A DNA stretch of 64,000 nucleotides from Saccharomonospora xinjiangensis XJ-54 (lineage in GTDB: Bacteria > Actinomycetota > Actinomycetes > Mycobacteriales > Pseudonocardiaceae): contig NZ_JH636049.1 of NCBI RefSeq assembly GCF_000258175.1, forward strand, positions 2,705,482 through 2,769,481. The letters run 5' to 3'. The notes below the pieces were generated by a model. It had not been told where the DNA came from, searched no databases, and worked only from the letters and a program-made list of their open reading frames with translations. Made by a program: the position numbers and the translations under genes. This document shows, one piece after another, positions 8,756 to 31,600 of the stretch; positions within the stretch are counted from its first letter, which is position 1; each line of letters begins with the position of its first letter.

Positions 8756-9430
8756 TCAGCGAGCCCTTCGGGCCAGGCGCTCCGGGTCGAGGATCAGCAC
8801 ACTCTTGCCTTCCAGCCGCAGCCAGCCGCGGTGGGCGAAGTCGGCGAGTGCCTTGTTCACGGTCTCGCGAGACGCGCCGACGTACTGGGCGATCTCCTCC
8901 TGTGTCAGGTCGTGGGTGACCCGCAACAGACCGGCCTCCTGGCTGCCGAAGCGCTGCGCGAGCTGGAGCAGCGCCCTGGCGACCCGGCCGGGGACATCGG
9001 TGAAGATCAGCTCGGCGACCATGTTGTTGGTGCGGCGGAGCCGGCGTGCGACGACGCGGAGCAGTTGTTCGGCGATCTCCGGTCGCGTCGAGATCCACTG
9101 CCGCAACGCGGGACGGTCCATCGTGACCGCGCTGACCTCGGTGACCGTCGTAGCGGTCGAGGTACGCGGGCCGGGGTCGAAGATCGACAGCTCGCCGAAC
9201 ATGTCCGAAGGGCCCATGATCTGGAACAGGTTCTCGCGGCCGTCGGCAGACTTACGGCCGATCTTCACCTTGCCCGACTTGATGATGTAGAGCTTGTCCC
9301 CCGGCTCGCCCTCGTTGAAGATCACGTGGCCGCGGGGGAAATCCACCGTCTCCAGAGTCTGTGCGAGCGCCTCTGCCGCCGCCGGTTCCACACCCTGGAA
9401 GATGCCCGCGCGGGCCAGGGTCTCGTCCAC
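8756..9430 (-). CDS. crp: Crp/Fnr-family cyclic-nucleotide-type transcriptional regulator
   Basis: A 224-residue global regulator of the Crp (GlxR-like) type. The N-terminal cyclic-nucleotide-binding barrel spans about residues 10-125, with [23 protein letters not shown] long dimerisation helix follows, then a C-terminal winged helix (about 165-215) with the recognition region [21 protein letters not shown]. It binds cAMP-dependent palindromes of TGTGA-N6-TCACA type in relatives. The GTG start at 9430 follows AAAGGAGG at good spacing, giving the family length; an upstream extension of the frame has no such support. Gene order next to nth matches Rv3676. The upstream gap (9431-9648) contains CTACA-N5-TGTAG at 9492-9506, possibly an autoregulatory site but a poor Crp match. 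Confidence 0.95.
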
Positions 9431-9648
9431 CTCGTGCCTCCTTTGGGTAGCGGCCGCCGTCTCCGCACGCGGGACGGCGTGCCGCCGATCACTACATGCA
9501 GTGTAGGGCGTGCCCCCGAGATCGCTCCCCGCTCGGGCCATGGAAAGGCAACCTGCTACTAACGAGTACGAGAAACGCGAACTCACCGCGTTCGCTCGAA
9601 TACTCCCTGTTGAGAGGCTCGGCGGAGGACCTCGTCCGACCGAACAGC

Positions 9649-25682: not shown

Positions 25683-26972
25683 TCACCGGTAGAGCAGGTA
25701 GGGCTGCCGTTGCCGGTCGAACGCGGCAAGCTCGTCGTGCCACGACGCCACGATGTCGCCTGTCGTCGCTCCCGCGTCCACCATCGTGCGGAACCGGTCG
25801 GAGCCGGTCAGTTTGTCGATGAAGTTGTCCCTGCGCCAGCCGAAGAGCCCGGGGTAGAGCTGTCGCGCGGTCACGATGAGATCGACACCGGTGCGGATGG
25901 GATCGAAGCGGTGTGGATCGGTGACGGTCAGCTGGAGCCCGCCGCAGGTCTCACCGGCGAACTTGCCGAACGTCGGAACGTAGTAGCACTCGCGGAACAC
26001 CACCCCTGGCAGGTCGTGCGACGAGACCTCCTCACGCCAGCGCCAGTCAACTCCCGGCGCGCCGAGAATCTCGAACGGGCGGGTCGTGCCCCTCCCTTCC
26101 GAGAACACCGTGCCTTCGAAGAGGCACGTCCCGGGGTAGGCGAGGGCGGTGTCCGGCGTCGGCATGTTCGGTGAGGGTGGTGTCCACAGCAGGCCCGTTT
26201 CGGCGAACACCTGCCTTCGATGCCAGCCCCGCATGGTGACGACATCGAGTGAGCCGAGTTCGACGCCGTCGCCGGGGAGCAGTTCGGCGGCGAAGAACCG
26301 CGCGAGCTCACCCACCGTCATGCCATGCTGCTGCACGATCGGCTTCAGCCCGACACCCGAGCTGTACGCGGGGTCGAGCATCGGCCCGTACGCCTTGCCT
26401 CCCACCGGGTTCGGCCGGTCGAGCACGACGAACTGCGCGCCGATCCGCGCCGAGGCCACCATCGCCCGGTACATCGACCAGATGTAGGTGTAGAAACGCG
26501 CTCCCACGTCGGCGATGTCGAACACCACCGTGTCCACCCCCGCCTTGCGGAGCAGTTCCGTGAGTTTGTCCGTGCCGACGCCGTAGATGTCGTACACGGG
26601 CACGCTGGTGCGCGGATCGGTGTAGTCGCCTTCGGAGCCGCCTGCCTGCGCGCTGCCACGGAATCCGTGTTCGGGGCCGAAAACGGCCACCGGGACGACC
26701 CCGGCCGCGACCAGCGAATCCACGATGTGCGCCTGGCCGGTCAGGACGCCGGTGGGGTTGGACAGCACGCCGACGCGGCGGCCTGCGAGGCGGCGCCAGC
26801 CGTCGGCGGCGAGCCGGTCGGCTCCCGGCGTCACCCTCGCCCCGCCACGCGCCTGCCCTGCGAGTGGTGAGGCAGGACCGGTGACGGCTGCGCCCGCAGA
26901 GGTCGCGGCGGTTGCCAGGAGCGAGCCGGCGAGCGCGCCGGTGGACAGGAACCTGCGCCTGTTCACGGTCAT
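25683..26972 (-). CDS. namZ: Exo-beta-N-acetylmuramidase (DUF1343)
   Basis: A 429-residue DUF1343 protein (glycoside hydrolase family 171). NamZ of B. subtilis releases MurNAc from non-reducing ends of peptidoglycan fragments. A twin-arginine signal (NRRRFLSTGALAGSLLATAATSAGA) shows export by Tat. Conserved parts include GVLSNPTGV, FGPEHGFRG near residue 100, FDIADVGARFYTYIW and LDRPNPVGG. The ATG overlaps the nagZ stop by 4 bp (ATGA), so the two are translationally coupled. The enzymes are complementary: NagZ removes GlcNAc and NamZ removes the exposed MurNAc. Confidence 0.93.
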   Translation of the reverse strand: MTVNRRRFLSTGALAGSLLATAATSAGAAVTGPASPLAGQARGGARVTPGADRLAADGWRRLAGRRVGVLSNPTGVLTGQAHIVDSLVAAGVVPVAVFGPEHGFRGSAQAGGSEGDYTDPRTSVPVYDIYGVGTDKLTELLRKAGVDTVVFDIADVGARFYTYIWSMYRAMVASARIGAQFVVLDRPNPVGGKAYGPMLDPAYSSGVGLKPIVQQHGMTVGELARFFAAELLPGDGVELGSLDVVTMRGWHRRQVFAETGLLWTPPSPNMPTPDTALAYPGTCLFEGTVFSEGRGTTRPFEILGAPGVDWRWREEVSSHDLPGVVFRECYYVPTFGKFAGETCGGLQLTVTDPHRFDPIRTGVDLIVTARQLYPGLFGWRRDNFIDKLTGSDRFRTMVDAGATTGDIVASWHDELAAFDRQRQPYLLYR

Positions 26973-28861
26973 GGTGTGTCTTCCTGACGTCGGGTCGGGG
27001 CCAGGAACGTCAGCCCGTGGCCGAACGGGTACAGAATCTGTGTCGGGTCGGGCCCGTCGGGGACGGCGACCGGGAGCCTGCCCTCGGGGGAGCGTTCCCC
27101 GACGATCACCTTCGCCAACGAGTTCATGGTCACGTCGCGCCAGTCGTAGGTCGCGATCCAGGTGGGCACCTCGACGTGGCCAGGGTCGTACGGCTCCTGG
27201 ACGGCGACCGCGATCACCGGCGTGTCCGTGCTGGTCAGCCGTTCCACAAGCTGACGCTGAGCCTCACTGCCCCGCAAGCCGTTGGTGAGGACAATCACGA
27301 CGTCGGCGGTACCTGCCGCGCCGACGACGTGGTCGATGGTCGCCTGGTCGGGGGCCGCTCCGGTCGAGATCGCCTCGATCTCGGCCTCGGTGCGCCGGGT
27401 CAGTGCCTCGGCGAGTGCCTCGACGGGCTCGGCGGCGTATCCGGGGTAGGTCGGGCGGTTCCAACCGGTGACCAGCACCTTCCCCACTTCGCCTTCCAGG
27501 GGCAGCAGGCCTGCGTCGTCGCTGAGCACTGTGGTCGAACGGTCGGTGAGCCGCTGCACGGTCTCCCGGTTCTCCTCGGTGCCGACGACGTCGTCCACCC
27601 GGTGCACCGGAACGATCGGGCGCTCCACGATCCCGCGCTCGTGCTTCATCCGCAGTACCCGCAGGACACTGGTGTCGATGCGCTCCTCGGTGAGCCTGCC
27701 GCTGCGCACGGCGGCGAGCACACCACCGATGGCGGCGTCGAGGTCGGGCGGCATGAGCATCTGATCGACGCCGGCCTCCAGCGCGCGTACCGGGATCTCG
27801 GCGTCGGAGTACTTCTTGCGCACGCCTGCCATGCCGAGGGAGTCGGTGACGACAACGCCGTCGTAGCCGAGTTCCTCCCTCAACAGTCCGGTCATGATCG
27901 GCCGCGAGAGCGTCGCCGGGTCACCGGAGGCGTCGAGGCTCGGCACCGAGATGTGTGCCGTCATGATCACGTCGATGTCTGCTTCGACGGCCTTGCGGAA
28001 CGGGGGCAGGTCGTGGGTGCGCCAGTCCTGTTCGCTGCGGTCGATCACGGGAAGGCCGACGTGGCTGTCGTCCTTCGCGTCACCGTGGCCGGGAAAGTGC
28101 TTCGCTGCGGCCGAGACACGCCTTGGCGCGGGGCCCGAGTTCTCGTAGCCATCGACCTGCGCGGCGACGAACTGCCCCGCGAGGTCGGCGTCGGAGGAGA
28201 ACGACCGGGAGCCGATGACCGGGTTCAGCGGGTTCGAGTTCACGTCGGCAACGGGCGCGAAGTCCTGGGTGATGCCCATGGCCCGCAGCTCCGTCGCGCT
28301 GATCGCCGCGGCCGTCCTCGCGCCATCGACATCGCGGGATGCGCCGAGGGCCATCGCACTGGGGTACTCGGTGACGTGCTCGGCGATCCGGGTGACCCTG
28401 CCACCTTCCTGGTCCACCGCGACGACGAGTGGTACGCCGGGGCCTGAGTTCAGCGCGGCGCGCTGCAACCCGTTGGAGAGCCGTGCCACCTGCCGTGGCG
28501 TCTCGATGTTGTCGGTGCCCCCGTGGTTGAAGTAGATAACGCCTCCGACGTTGTACTCGCGCACCACGTCGGCGGGAGTGTCAACGCCGTACTTGCGCTG
28601 GTTGCCGGGGTGAGTCTCGTCGGCCGACGTGCCCCAGACATCGACCACGAACAACTGGCCGACCTTCTGCTCCAGCGTCATGGACCGCAATGTCCGCTCA
28701 GGCCAGCTCAGTCTTCCCCCTCGGCCGGAGGCGGATTCGGGGTCGGTGGTCGAGGCGGTCTGCTGAGCTTGCGCCGATGCCGCGCCGGTGGTCACGGCGA
28801 GCAAGCCTACGAGTGCGGCGGTGGCGCGGGCCTTCCAAGGCCGGGCGCTGCGAGTGGTCAC
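26969..28861 (-). CDS. nagZ: Exported beta-N-acetylglucosaminidase (glycoside hydrolase 3)
   Basis: A 630-residue GH3 enzyme. The signal peptide is at residues 1-33 (ATAALVGLLAVTTGAASAQAQ). The catalytic TIM barrel has the NagZ signature KHFPGHGDAKDDSH with K254/H255, the His serving as general acid in this group, and the nucleophile candidate D340 in VVTDSLGM. A C-terminal alpha/beta domain (about 420-610) is present as in B. subtilis NagZ. It removes GlcNAc from muropeptides outside the cytoplasmic membrane. The GTG start at 28861 follows GGGAGG; the frame is open 18 codons upstream but without a ribosome site. It is the first gene of the nagZ-namZ-amiE operon. Confidence 0.94.
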   Translation of the reverse strand: MTTRSARPWKARATAALVGLLAVTTGAASAQAQQTASTTDPESASGRGGRLSWPERTLRSMTLEQKVGQLFVVDVWGTSADETHPGNQRKYGVDTPADVVREYNVGGVIYFNHGGTDNIETPRQVARLSNGLQRAALNSGPGVPLVVAVDQEGGRVTRIAEHVTEYPSAMALGASRDVDGARTAAAISATELRAMGITQDFAPVADVNSNPLNPVIGSRSFSSDADLAGQFVAAQVDGYENSGPAPRRVSAAAKHFPGHGDAKDDSHVGLPVIDRSEQDWRTHDLPPFRKAVEADIDVIMTAHISVPSLDASGDPATLSRPIMTGLLREELGYDGVVVTDSLGMAGVRKKYSDAEIPVRALEAGVDQMLMPPDLDAAIGGVLAAVRSGRLTEERIDTSVLRVLRMKHERGIVERPIVPVHRVDDVVGTEENRETVQRLTDRSTTVLSDDAGLLPLEGEVGKVLVTGWNRPTYPGYAAEPVEALAEALTRRTEAEIEAISTGAAPDQATIDHVVGAAGTADVVIVLTNGLRGSEAQRQLVERLTSTDTPVIAVAVQEPYDPGHVEVPTWIATYDWRDVTMNSLAKVIVGERSPEGRLPVAVPDGPDPTQILYPFGHGLTFLAPTRRQEDTP

Positions 28862-28924
28862 ATGGCCTCCCGGTGTGCGGACGTGCGGATGTGGAAAATC
28901 CACCCGTACGAGCAAGCAAGCGGA

Positions 28925-28958
28925 AAGCTACTCACCAAACCGTGGTCGGTCAACGACC
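28925..28958 (-). promoter_or_regulatory. nagZ promoter with overlapping palindrome
   Basis: On the minus strand TTGACC (28953-28948) and TAGCTT (28930-28925) are separated by 17 bp, a good housekeeping-sigma promoter. It predicts a start near 28918 and a 5' leader of about 57 nt. The inverted repeat GGTCG-TTGAC-CGACC (28958-28944) is centred on the -35 box, so a bound protein there would block RNA polymerase. Confidence 0.7.
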
Positions 28959-28980
28959 GAACGTAGCAACGGCCTGTAGG

Positions 28981-29234
28981 CAGAAAGAGTGGCGCCCGCC
29001 GGCTACCGGAACCAGCGGGCGCCACGTGGTCACATGTTCGGCCGGGCGACCAAGCGTGCAATCGTGTCGTCACTCGCGGGGACTCGGCGTCCGGCGTCCC
29101 GTTTACGCAGTCCCTCGACGACAAGCCTCTCGCGGCGTGCTCCGCGTGGGTACCCGACGTCCATGTACAGACGTTCCGCCGGGGTGGAACAGGCTTCTCC
29201 TCCGCCTGTTCCCTGGCCGGGGGAACCTCCGCAC
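28981..29234 (-). ncRNA. Candidate Ms1/MTS2823-type (6S-like) small RNA
   Basis: A gene-free stretch carries all parts of a stand-alone minus-strand RNA of about 250 nt: a near-consensus promoter at 29268-29240, internal hairpins such as GGAACAGGC/GCCTGTTCC (29186-29212), and an intrinsic terminator at 28989-29025 followed by TCTTTCT. In mycobacteria the abundant RNA Ms1 (MTS2823), which binds the RNA polymerase core, lies directly downstream of the HAD phosphatase gene Rv3661 on the same strand. Here the RNA is in exactly that place. The identity is inferred from synteny and architecture; I did not match the primary sequence or fold it. Confidence 0.7.
28989..29025 (-). terminator. Terminator of the Ms1-like RNA
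   Basis: GTGGCGCCCGC and its perfect 11-base complement enclose a 15-base loop. On the minus strand the stem is followed by TCTTTCTG. Confidence 0.85.
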
Positions 29235-29239
29235 TTCCC

Positions 29240-29268
29240 TTTGTAGTCAGTGACGGGCGTCACTTCAA
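29240..29268 (-). promoter_or_regulatory. Strong promoter of the Ms1-like RNA
   Basis: On the minus strand TTGAAG (29268-29263) and TACAAA (29245-29240) are exactly 17 bp apart, close to the vegetative sigma consensus and the best promoter seen in the window. The predicted start is near 29234. Confidence 0.8.
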
Positions 29269-29330
29269 GGTTTGCGGACGGTGCACCGTTCCAGATTCCG
29301 AACGGATGACGTGGCCCGATACGGACCGTG

Positions 29331-30176
29331 TCAGCCGCGCGGCGAGTCGCGGTGCTTCTTCCTGGAAAGGCCGAACAGGGTGGCACCCGCGGCCACGGCG
29401 CCGACACCGAGTCCCACCGCGACGGCCGCCGTCGTCGTCGGGGAGGGAATGCGGGCACGGGGGGAGATCGGGCTCGCGAACGTGTGTACCGGCCAGCCAC
29501 GTTCTTGCGCCGCGCGCCGCAGGGCCCTGTCCGGATTCACCACGTGCGGGTGGCCGACGACCTCCAGCAGCGGGAGGTCGGTACTCGAATCCGTGTAGGC
29601 GTGGCACTCGGCGAGGTCGTACCCGCGCTCCGCGGCGATCTGCCGGGCCGCGACCGCCTTGTACTCGCCGTAGCAGTAGAAATCCACCTTGCCCGAGTAG
29701 CGGCCGTCCACGATCTCCATCCGGCTGCCGAGGCTGTGCGTGATGCCGAGCATGTCGGCGATGGGCCGCACGACCTCCTCTCCGGTGGCGGACAGGACGA
29801 TCACGTCCCTTCCCTCGGCCTTGTGCCGCTCGATGAGTTCCGCGGCCTCGGCGTACACCAGCGGCGCCACCACGTCGTGGAGCGTCTCGCTCACGATGGC
29901 CTTGACCTGCTCGACGTCCCAGCCCGTGCACATGCGCGAGATCTCGGCACGGAGTCGTTCGGTCCGGTCCTCGTCCGCTCCGGACAACGCGAACATCAAC
30001 TGTGCGTAGGCGCTCTTCAACGCCGCACGGCGGTTGATCAGTCCTTGCCGGAGGAACGGCTTGCTGAAGGCGAGCGCGCTGGACGAAGCGATGATCGTCT
30101 TGTCGAGGTCGAAGAACGCCGCCGAGGTGGCCTGCGTCGTGGGGAGAGGGGCGGCGCTGTCATCGAGTGGGGGCAC
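29331..30176 (-). CDS. HAD-superfamily IB phosphatase with C-terminal membrane helix
   Basis: A 281-residue HAD-IB (SerB-like) hydrolase. Motif I is FFDLDKTII (residues 21-29), motif II is VLSATGEE near residue 128, and motif IV is AYTDSSTDLPLLE near residue 195. A C-terminal helix (about 250-270, TTTAAVAVGLGVGAVAAGATLFG) followed by basic residues would anchor it with the catalytic domain in the cytoplasm. It is orthologous in position to Rv3661, and in Streptomyces to a gene linked to differentiation. The GTG start is at 30176. Small RNA genes flank it on both sides. The substrate is unknown. Confidence 0.88.
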   Translation of the reverse strand: MPPLDDSAAPLPTTQATSAAFFDLDKTIIASSSALAFSKPFLRQGLINRRAALKSAYAQLMFALSGADEDRTERLRAEISRMCTGWDVEQVKAIVSETLHDVVAPLVYAEAAELIERHKAEGRDVIVLSATGEEVVRPIADMLGITHSLGSRMEIVDGRYSGKVDFYCYGEYKAVAARQIAAERGYDLAECHAYTDSSTDLPLLEVVGHPHVVNPDRALRRAAQERGWPVHTFASPISPRARIPSPTTTAAVAVGLGVGAVAAGATLFGLSRKKHRDSPRG

Positions 30177-30301: not shown

Positions 30302-30391
30302 CGCCCGGCAACGACCGGGCCGTTCGGTTCACTCCCCCCAGGACCGAACGGCGGCGGCCCTCGCTCCTCCCCCTGGCGGGGGCCGCCTTTC
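30302..30391 (+). ncRNA. 6C RNA (B11/ncRv13660c-type small RNA)
   Basis: Two consecutive hairpins have loops rich in cytosine. GCCGTTCGGT/ACCGAACGGC (30319-30352) has a loop with six C in a row, and GGCGGCCC/GGGCCGCC (30353-30387) has a loop with five C and is followed by TTT as terminator. A 5' mini-hairpin CCCGG/CCGGG precedes them. This is the actinobacterial 6C RNA architecture. The RNA lies upstream of and in the same direction as ssd, exactly as the 93-nt B11 RNA next to Rv3660c. A TAGAGT -10 box at 30291-30296 fits a start near 30302. In mycobacteria 6C/B11 pairs through its C-rich loops with G-rich ribosome-binding sites. Confidence 0.93.
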
Positions 30392-30437: not shown

Positions 30438-30523
30438 GGTTTGCCAGGTGTGGGTTGTCCGTGGTGTCGCCGAGGACGACGGTGGTGGAGAAAACCGTCG
30501 ATTCCGGGGTACTGGGGGCAGAG

Positions 30524-31600
30524 ATGGCCGAGACGACCGAGACGACCGAGATGGTCGAGGCAGCAGACAACCGCCCACTCGTTGTCGTGGCCGACGACGT
30601 CGTGCGCGACCACATCACCCGGCTTGCGGCAGCGGTGGGCTGCGATCCCTGTCATGCCCGTGATGTCGGAGCCATCCGGTCGCGATGGGCTCGTGCACCT
30701 CTCGTCCTGCTCGACCGGGTTCCCGACATCGGTGACCTGCCACGGCGGCCGAACGTGCTGCTCGTACGCGCCGAAGCCCCGACACAGTCCGAGTGGAAAG
30801 CGGCGGTGTCTCTCGGCGTTGACGGAGCCGCCATCCTGCCGGAGGACGAGGATCTGGTGGTCACGTCGCTCGCCGATGTCGCCGAGCGGCCCAGCGCCCG
30901 TGAGGGCAGGGTGCTGGCTGTGGTGAGTGGGCGAGGTGGTGCGGGCGCGTCGGTGCTCGCGGCGAGCGTGAGTTCGGAGGCGGCGCGGTGCGGTGATGCG
31001 GCACTGCTCGTTGACTGCGATCCGCTCGGCGGTGGTATCGATCTCGTGCTCGGCACCGAGGCCGATGAGGGGTTGCGCTGGCCGGACCTGCGCTTGTCGG
31101 CCGGTCGCATGGCCATGAGCGAGCTCGACGCCGCCCTGCCCTCGCGCAGGCGGGGCCGGGGGCGCCTGTCTGTGCTGTCGTGCGACAGGGCAGGCCGCGG
31201 TCCGACGGATGTCGCCGTGGCCGCTGTGCTCGACGCGGGGCGGCGGGCAGGGCGGACGGTGGTGTGCGACCTGCCCCGCTATCCGGGCCCGGTGTGCGAC
31301 GAGGTCCTGCACCGCGCCGATCTCACGGTGCTCGTCGTGCCCGCCGATGTGCGCGGCTGTGTCGCGGCAGCATGCGTGAGGCGGCGACTGGGCGAACGCA
31401 CGTCACGCATGGAGGTCGTCGTCAGGGGAAGAGCGACGAGTGGTCTCTCGGAGGCCGACATCGCCGAGGCCGTCGGCGCGCCGGTGCTCGGTTGGCTGCG
31501 TCACGACAACGCAGTCGCGCGGACACTCGACCTCGGGTCTTTCCGGCCGACCAGGCATCTCGCGAGGGTGGCGCGGACAATCCTCGCCACCCTCGCGTAG
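30524..31600 (+). CDS. ssd: Septum-site-determining protein, Ssd/MinD-like
   Basis: A 358-residue MinD/ParA-superfamily protein orthologous to Rv3660c (Ssd), which inhibits septation when overproduced in mycobacteria. Residues 25-115 form a receiver-like N-terminal domain. The ATPase-like domain starts near 130 with SGRGGAGASVLAASV, a deviant Walker A without the catalytic lysine, and has VDCDPLGGGIDLVLG as the switch-I-like region. The start is the ATG at 30524; the frame is open 23 codons upstream from a GTG. It precedes the tad genes, as TadZ/CpaE-type proteins do, and may place the pilus machine. Confidence 0.88.
   Translation: MAETTETTEMVEAADNRPLVVVADDVVRDHITRLAAAVGCDPCHARDVGAIRSRWARAPLVLLDRVPDIGDLPRRPNVLLVRAEAPTQSEWKAAVSLGVDGAAILPEDEDLVVTSLADVAERPSAREGRVLAVVSGRGGAGASVLAASVSSEAARCGDAALLVDCDPLGGGIDLVLGTEADEGLRWPDLRLSAGRMAMSELDAALPSRRRGRGRLSVLSCDRAGRGPTDVAVAAVLDAGRRAGRTVVCDLPRYPGPVCDEVLHRADLTVLVVPADVRGCVAAACVRRRLGERTSRMEVVVRGRATSGLSEADIAEAVGAPVLGWLRHDNAVARTLDLGSFRPTRHLARVARTILATLA

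Follow-up and report, generated by a model that had tools for sequence, protein, structure and literature searches.

A probable Ms1 RNA gene behind the HAD hydrolase gene of Saccharomonospora xinjiangensis and a candidate CRP-type dyad in its promoter

Gene order and transcription signals of the locus

The window analyzed in this study is a stretch of 64,000 nucleotides from Saccharomonospora xinjiangensis XJ-54. It carries ssd, a CpaE homologue (30455..31600, plus strand; TIGR03815), the 6C RNA (30318..30391, plus strand; RF01066, 62.8 bits with a gathering score of 47), a HAD-IB family hydrolase gene, which is a marker of Ms1 loci (29331..30176, minus strand; TIGR01490), the putative Ms1 RNA (28984..29233, minus strand; aligned to Rfam RF02566 over model positions 1-304), and a nagZ-like glycoside hydrolase family 3 (GH3) gene (26969..28861, minus strand; PF00933, E 5.7e-91). 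According to the annotation of the window, ssd, 6C RNA, HAD, and Ms1 stand in the order of an intact Ms1 synteny, with the RNA behind the HAD-IB hydrolase gene and beside ssd, as is the case in the synteny described in PMC9130861. The linkage of 6C and Ms1 is the same in mycobacteria (PMC9569102). The nearest named relatives of the HAD protein include S. saliphila and S. iraqiensis, followed by Prauserella and Amycolatopsis. Over the stretch compared, Ms1 promoters from genomes of the window's genus are also identical to those of named species (L214 with L033 and L220 with L035), and the genus assignment is based on these two observations.

The preliminary description of this DNA had proposed a gene-free body of about 250 nt, and indeed no recognized gene overlaps it, with HAD ending at 29331 and GH3 likely starting at 28861. 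The longest open reading frame of GH3 begins at 28915, and the GTG at 28861, which was picked by eye from the Shine-Dalgarno sequence, is most likely the start of the gene. A putative GH3 promoter, TTGACC-N17-TAGCTT (28925..28953, minus strand; read from the sequence only), is located about 27 bp past the T-rich tail of Ms1, where a nagZ promoter had been expected. An influence of Ms1 on nagZ, which had also been considered, was dropped as a claim, as its support is adjacency alone.

The promoter suggested for the RNA, TTGAAG-N17-TACAAA on the minus strand, was confirmed, with the -35 element at 29268-29263 and the -10 element at 29245-29240. A strict sigma-70 scan recovered no promoter at Ms1, because TACAAA is without the final T. 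The case for this putative promoter rests on conservation: A occupies positions 4, 5, and 6 of the -10 element in 78, 77, and 78, respectively, of 79 distinct Ms1 promoters, all from Mycobacteriales, which have a 17-nt spacer and represent 110 of 115 loci (the other 5 loci have 18 nt). The distance from TTG to the TA of the -10 element is 20 nt in 110 of the 115 loci and 21 nt in 5; the search required TTG and TA, so these letters themselves are no evidence of conservation.

At the other end, a terminator stem of 11 bp with a T-rich tail had been described on the minus strand. The stem and the tail were both found (28989..29025), but the stem is composed of 16 pairs, followed by TCTTTCTG; it is supported by a terminator scan and by the covariation of helix 9. 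It is one of three terminator-like sites in 28700-29500, compared with a mean of 0.5 in shuffles, and the other two are short and on the plus strand. The predicted fold of the body has a free energy of -136.6 kcal/mol, compared with -112.9 for 200 dinucleotide shuffles, none of which is as low (z -4.63), and presents a long hairpin with a central internal loop and conserved flanks. Judged from these signals in the DNA, the RNA would have its own promoter and its own intrinsic terminator.

Identity of the RNA

Ms1 is a small RNA that is thought to hold the RNA polymerase core in resting cells (PMC4191392, PMC9130861, PMC11077062), and it makes up more than 60% of the RNA-polymerase RIP-seq reads in stationary phase (PMC11077062). 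When 28850-29350 (501 bases) was searched with 4227 Rfam families at an E-value limit of 5, Ms1 was the sole family that matched: RF02566 aligned to 29233-28984 on the minus strand over model positions 1-304 of 304, with 58.1 bits and an E value of 6.9e-14 for the 501 bases. The covariance-model match on which the preliminary description had made the identity depend was thus obtained, though under the Rfam gathering score, which is 162 bits for RF02566. At gathering thresholds, Rfam gives only a tRNA and the 6C RNA in the whole window and no Ms1. In the whole genome, a single RF02566 match was listed (E 1.5e-13).

The low score is shared by the family. RF02566 matches were found in 118 of 150 Pseudonocardiaceae genomes, all below the gathering score; 0 of the 150 reach 162 bits, and 32 are without a match under the strict filters applied. 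None of 14 control genomes matches. In the genus of the window, 11 of 12 genomes have a match; the twelfth, which has none, is 83% complete. Across the phylum, RF02566 finds 15 of 396 genomes, counting that of the window, and the 9 of 396 that exceed the gathering score all belong to one genus (g47), which suggests that this score fits a narrow group. The value of 162 is a curation limit and not a biological trait or defining feature, and it hides Ms1 genes throughout Pseudonocardiaceae. There was also no RF02566 match among the listed genomes of the family taken for Streptomyces; therefore, a genome that RF02566 does not match need not lack Ms1. According to the discussion of PMC9130861, Rfam yields Ms1 candidates only close to mycobacteria.

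A conserved core, CCCACGC...GCACGCTTGGT, is common to the window and mycobacteria and occurs in a looser form in other actinobacteria. In the window, its two strands are CCCACGCGGAGCA (29138..29150, minus strand), conserved in the locus comparison, and GCACGCTTGGT (29049..29059, minus strand), which is predicted to pair with the former beside internal loops (helix 5). With the regular expression CCCACGC..AGC followed by GCACGCTTGGT, the core was found in 115 of 128 loci, a set that repeats some loci; the 13 loci without it were kept out of the alignment. The two motifs are separated by 91 nt in the window and by about 90 nt in most Pseudonocardiaceae, whereas the mycobacterial distance is about 142-148 nt, and this closer spacing accounts for most of the difference in length from the mycobacterial Ms1. 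A looser expression applied 3' of HAD genes in more distant actinobacteria found related cores, a result that includes some chance matches and was obtained without a shuffle control.

The consensus structure was derived from 27 Pseudonocardiaceae-type sequences of the 28 listed (L021 was left out) and contains 71 pairs. Of these, 36 are changed on both sides, compared with 17.4 in shuffles; the paired cells amount to 95.0% compared with 87.5%, and the covariation score is 0.265 compared with 0.124, with 0 of 500 shuffles as high in each of the three measures. When the 3' partner is shifted by 1-3 columns, the paired cells fall from 95% to 32-42%, a comparison that favours the structure over its shifted versions, as it was predicted from the same alignment in which the pairs were counted. 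Since the relatedness of the sequences inflates the shuffle test as well, the counts are to be read as support for the structure and not as proof of it. Helix 5, which joins the two core motifs, has 0 pairs changed on both sides; because it is invariant, covariation is no test of it, and its conservation is the argument.

The full-length covariance-model match, the order of HAD, 6C, and ssd, the core motif, and the covariation all bear out the identity with Ms1 that had been proposed, and we are confident in suggesting that the region encodes an Ms1 RNA, an orthologue of MTS2823 and scr3559, with a predicted promoter of its own behind the HAD gene and a predicted terminator of its own. As the RNA has the same parts as its Ms1 relatives, it most plausibly shares their role, which would include binding of the core polymerase, build-up in stationary phase, and an effect on the polymerase level, the subject with which a 2019 paper on Ms1 reportedly deals.

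Two other identities were weighed. The general shape of a long hairpin with internal loops is also that of 6S RNA, and Ms1 first came up in searches for 6S RNA (PMC4191392). However, the gene order and the core motif are those of Ms1, up to an E value of 5 the stretch 28850-29350 has no match to a 6S family of Rfam and, among the 4227 families, only the one to Ms1, and scr3559, the relative from Streptomyces coelicolor, binds RNA polymerase mostly without HrdB (PMC9130861, PMC11077062). We consider it extremely improbable that the RNA is a 6S RNA rather than Ms1. HAD, the RNA, and GH3 lie on one strand with short gaps, so that the stretch, rather than being a separate RNA, might belong to the HAD mRNA as a structured 3' UTR or serve the GH3 gene as a 5' leader. 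This is very improbable in view of the conserved promoter in front and the covarying terminator behind, and GH3 is preceded by a promoter-like sequence of its own. Moreover, although a GH3 match stands beside HAD in 52 of 59 Pseudonocardiaceae-type HAD loci, the flank compared contains one in 0 of 49 other HAD loci, mostly of mycobacteria, which argues against a leader.

A CRP-type dyad in the promoter spacer

Between the -35 and -10 elements of the putative Ms1 promoter lies AGTGACGCCCGTCACT (29264-29249, minus strand), a candidate CRP-type dyad of the form AGTGA-N6-TCACT with the core GTGA-N6-TCAC. It is close to the Crp consensus TGTGA-N6-TCACA (PMC7739888), with 2 mismatches, both in the outermost pair. 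The pattern WGTGAN6TCACW has 10 sites in the genome, one of which is the Ms1 site, compared with 6 for the backwards pattern; a single match therefore means little, and it is conservation that carries the argument.

All 11 loci compared in the genus (the window and ten others) have GTGA-N6-TCAC, with 10 different N6. Among the 79 distinct Ms1 promoters, both halves occur in 43, the left one alone in 9, the right one alone in 6, and no half in 21; the half-site columns hold 0.68-1.90 bits and the middle six 0.15-0.84. Of the spacings from 2 to 10, 6 is the only one found, and the 43 promoters show 31 different N6. Some Pseudonocardiaceae lack the dyad: of 40 further promoters of the family, which were picked from places matched in the family search excluding loci already included, 12 have GTGA and TCAC, 12 have GTGA with another xCAC, and 16 fail in one or both halves (L235, anchored at a wrong TTG and showing GTGC...TCAC, was counted as it stood). 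The loci in which the dyad was counted are related, so these counts are not independent, and many of the loci were gathered by HAD similarity.

In many mycobacteria the dyad is broken and reads GTGC...TCTAG or similar; going by the named species, we take these to be slow growers. L107 is a mycobacterium that has the same core variant and keeps the dyad, and the mycobacteria with an intact dyad read TGTGA. Many mycobacterial loci (among L062-L111) share GGTCTAGTAG in place of the dyad, a sequence which is conserved in its own right and is perhaps another operator.

The genome encodes a Crp protein that is a candidate binder of the dyad. The gene at 8756..9586 (minus strand), 20 kb from Ms1, is the genome's best HTH_Crp_2 match and belongs to the Crp/Fnr family, and the closest PDB entry to its product is 3i54 (E 1.1e-117), which we take to be the CRP of M. 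tuberculosis. If this Crp bound the dyad between the -35 and -10 elements, its dimer would cover the Ms1 promoter, and for this reason we propose that Crp may repress Ms1 during growth. CRP that binds close to the start site in M. tuberculosis is associated with repression (PMC4117774); the main text of that paper does not mention MTS2823, Rv3661, or Rv3662.

It is conceivable, although short of probable, that the Ms1 of Mycobacteriales was ancestrally under direct CRP repression through an operator between -35 and -10, which would connect the reserve of RNA polymerase core with the carbon/cAMP state, and that this operator was lost in most slow-growing mycobacteria. Such a loss would help explain why MTS2823 is already abundant in their growing cells. 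In growing M. tuberculosis, MTS2823 is the most abundant transcript after rRNA, and it rises from 6748 to 43600 RPKM (PMC3207917). This change fits repression when set against the rise of about 130-fold of Ms1 in M. smegmatis, but the correlation, one between expression figures, is weak.

The spacer dyad may instead be no CRP site, and might bind another dyad-binding regulator, BldD being one that was considered, or be an extended promoter signature. We regard this as a serious possibility without thinking it probable. In many Pseudonocardiaceae the dyad begins with AGTGA and not TGTGA, its halves vary to the extent that 16 of the 40 family samples fail in one or both, and CRP-like sites are scarcely enriched genome-wide. 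On the other hand, the core of the Crp consensus reads GTGA-N6-TCAC (PMC7739888), N6 is the sole spacing from 2 to 10 and occurs in 43 of the 79 promoters with its 31 different sequences, and the intact mycobacterial dyads have the TGTGA of that consensus.

Returning to repression by CRP, our literature searches found no link of CRP to Ms1 or MTS2823. CRP has been tied to MTS0997 (PMC3207917), and CRP and MTS2823 are both named, without being linked, in passages of PMC12709188. The CRP-type dyad in the Ms1 promoter is possibly new. The sigma factor of the Ms1 promoter and a possible regulator were left open in a 2014 paper (PMC4191392), and a conserved CRP-type site would give the question of Ms1 regulation a specific and cheap test.

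The -35 element of Ms1 is also preceded by a palindrome, CGGTGCACCG (29279..29288, minus strand), which is built around GGTGCACC and represents an upstream element of most of the Pseudonocardiaceae Ms1 promoters compared. GGTGCAC stands 19-20 bp before the -35 element in 37 of 43 distinct Pseudonocardiaceae upstreams, and GTGCAC is present in 30 of the 40 further promoters of the family. However, the GTGCAC element occurs in 2 of the 11 loci of the window's genus, and GGTGCAC in 0 of 65 other loci, a set that was not dereplicated, consists mostly of mycobacteria and relatives, and includes the Pseudonocardiaceae loci L002, L004, and L130. The reading of GTGCAC as a general Ms1 operator was rejected.

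Second copies and comparison with known relatives

The window's own genome has one Ms1 match. Elsewhere, Ms1-like RNAs with no HAD, GH3, or ssd match within 1.5 kb were observed at L002 (G122:C9) and L004 (G002:C46), and by eye the core and the promoter- and terminator-like sequences are kept in both. Each of the two genomes has the usual copy as well, next to HAD and ssd (L129 and L130); that of the L004 genome is on G002:C20, and this genome belongs to a different genus of the family from L002. In the genus of L002 (further HAD-unlinked RNAs at L190-L201 and L204-L213), a large one of Pseudonocardiaceae which we guess is probably Pseudonocardia, 47 of 60 genomes match the L002 copy, some probably through the usual copy only, and 17 of 60 have at least two matches, usual copies included (in G706 these are two pieces of one place). 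Six genomes (G667, G672, G704, G707, G712, and G715) have at least two matches on one contig, which makes a binning error unlikely there. The contexts of the second copies differ between species, and L204 presents a pair of Ms1-like RNAs 1.2 kb apart. Earlier work has described second Ms1 genes in M. nebraskense, M. celatum, Rhodococcus jostii RHA1, Smaragdicoccus, and a Rhodococcus plasmid (PMC9569102), so the second copies are of a known kind.

Carriage of Ms1 by plasmids or phages was considered and rejected. The L002 copy has no match in phages, and one exact pattern found 0 viral contigs. In the plasmid collection, two records match, a 154-kb one of Tsukamurella and a 2.66-Mb one of Nocardia. 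The matching stretch of the former (NZ_LR134469.1; H2, L202), which is labelled as a plasmid, is the usual ssd-HAD-Ms1 locus, and that of the latter has no annotated feature. Both records are probably chromosomal, and that of Tsukamurella is probably a piece of chromosome under a wrong label.

Ms1 binds RNA polymerase and occurs widely, and the RNA of the window can be compared with several known systems. 6S RNA binds the sigma-containing holoenzyme. It resembles the window RNA in its open-promoter-like hairpin and differs in this partner, and it has no Rfam match at the window locus.

The scr3559/Str13 (Ms1) RNA of Streptomyces coelicolor is similar in its position 3' of the HAD gene. The loci used for this comparison are Streptomyces-like and belong to genomes of a family that we take for Streptomyces. 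A related core, CCCACGCG...GACGC(T/C)TGGT, was found in 9 of 10 of them with a loose regular expression. They differ from the window in that GTGA-N6-TCAC is absent from the 10 stretches, which are of 921-981 bases, and in that the listed genomes have no RF02566 match. The Streptomyces-like loci L163-L171, where GTGA-N6-TCAC is likewise absent, have in common a GAGTACAAA -10 element and, upstream, an element resembling AAAGTAAAGAA(C/G)T.

Saccharomonospora is among the genera with predicted Ms1 in Table 4 of PMC9130861, so the Ms1 identity was already known at genus level. The window RNA shares the genus and the gene order with these candidates and is most likely the one of that table, which gives the genus only. 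Compared with the Ms1/MTS2823 of mycobacteria (RF02566), the window RNA is shorter (about 250 nt vs 304) and scores below the gathering score, but it has the full-length match, the HAD/ssd order, the place of the promoter, and the core motif in common with it.
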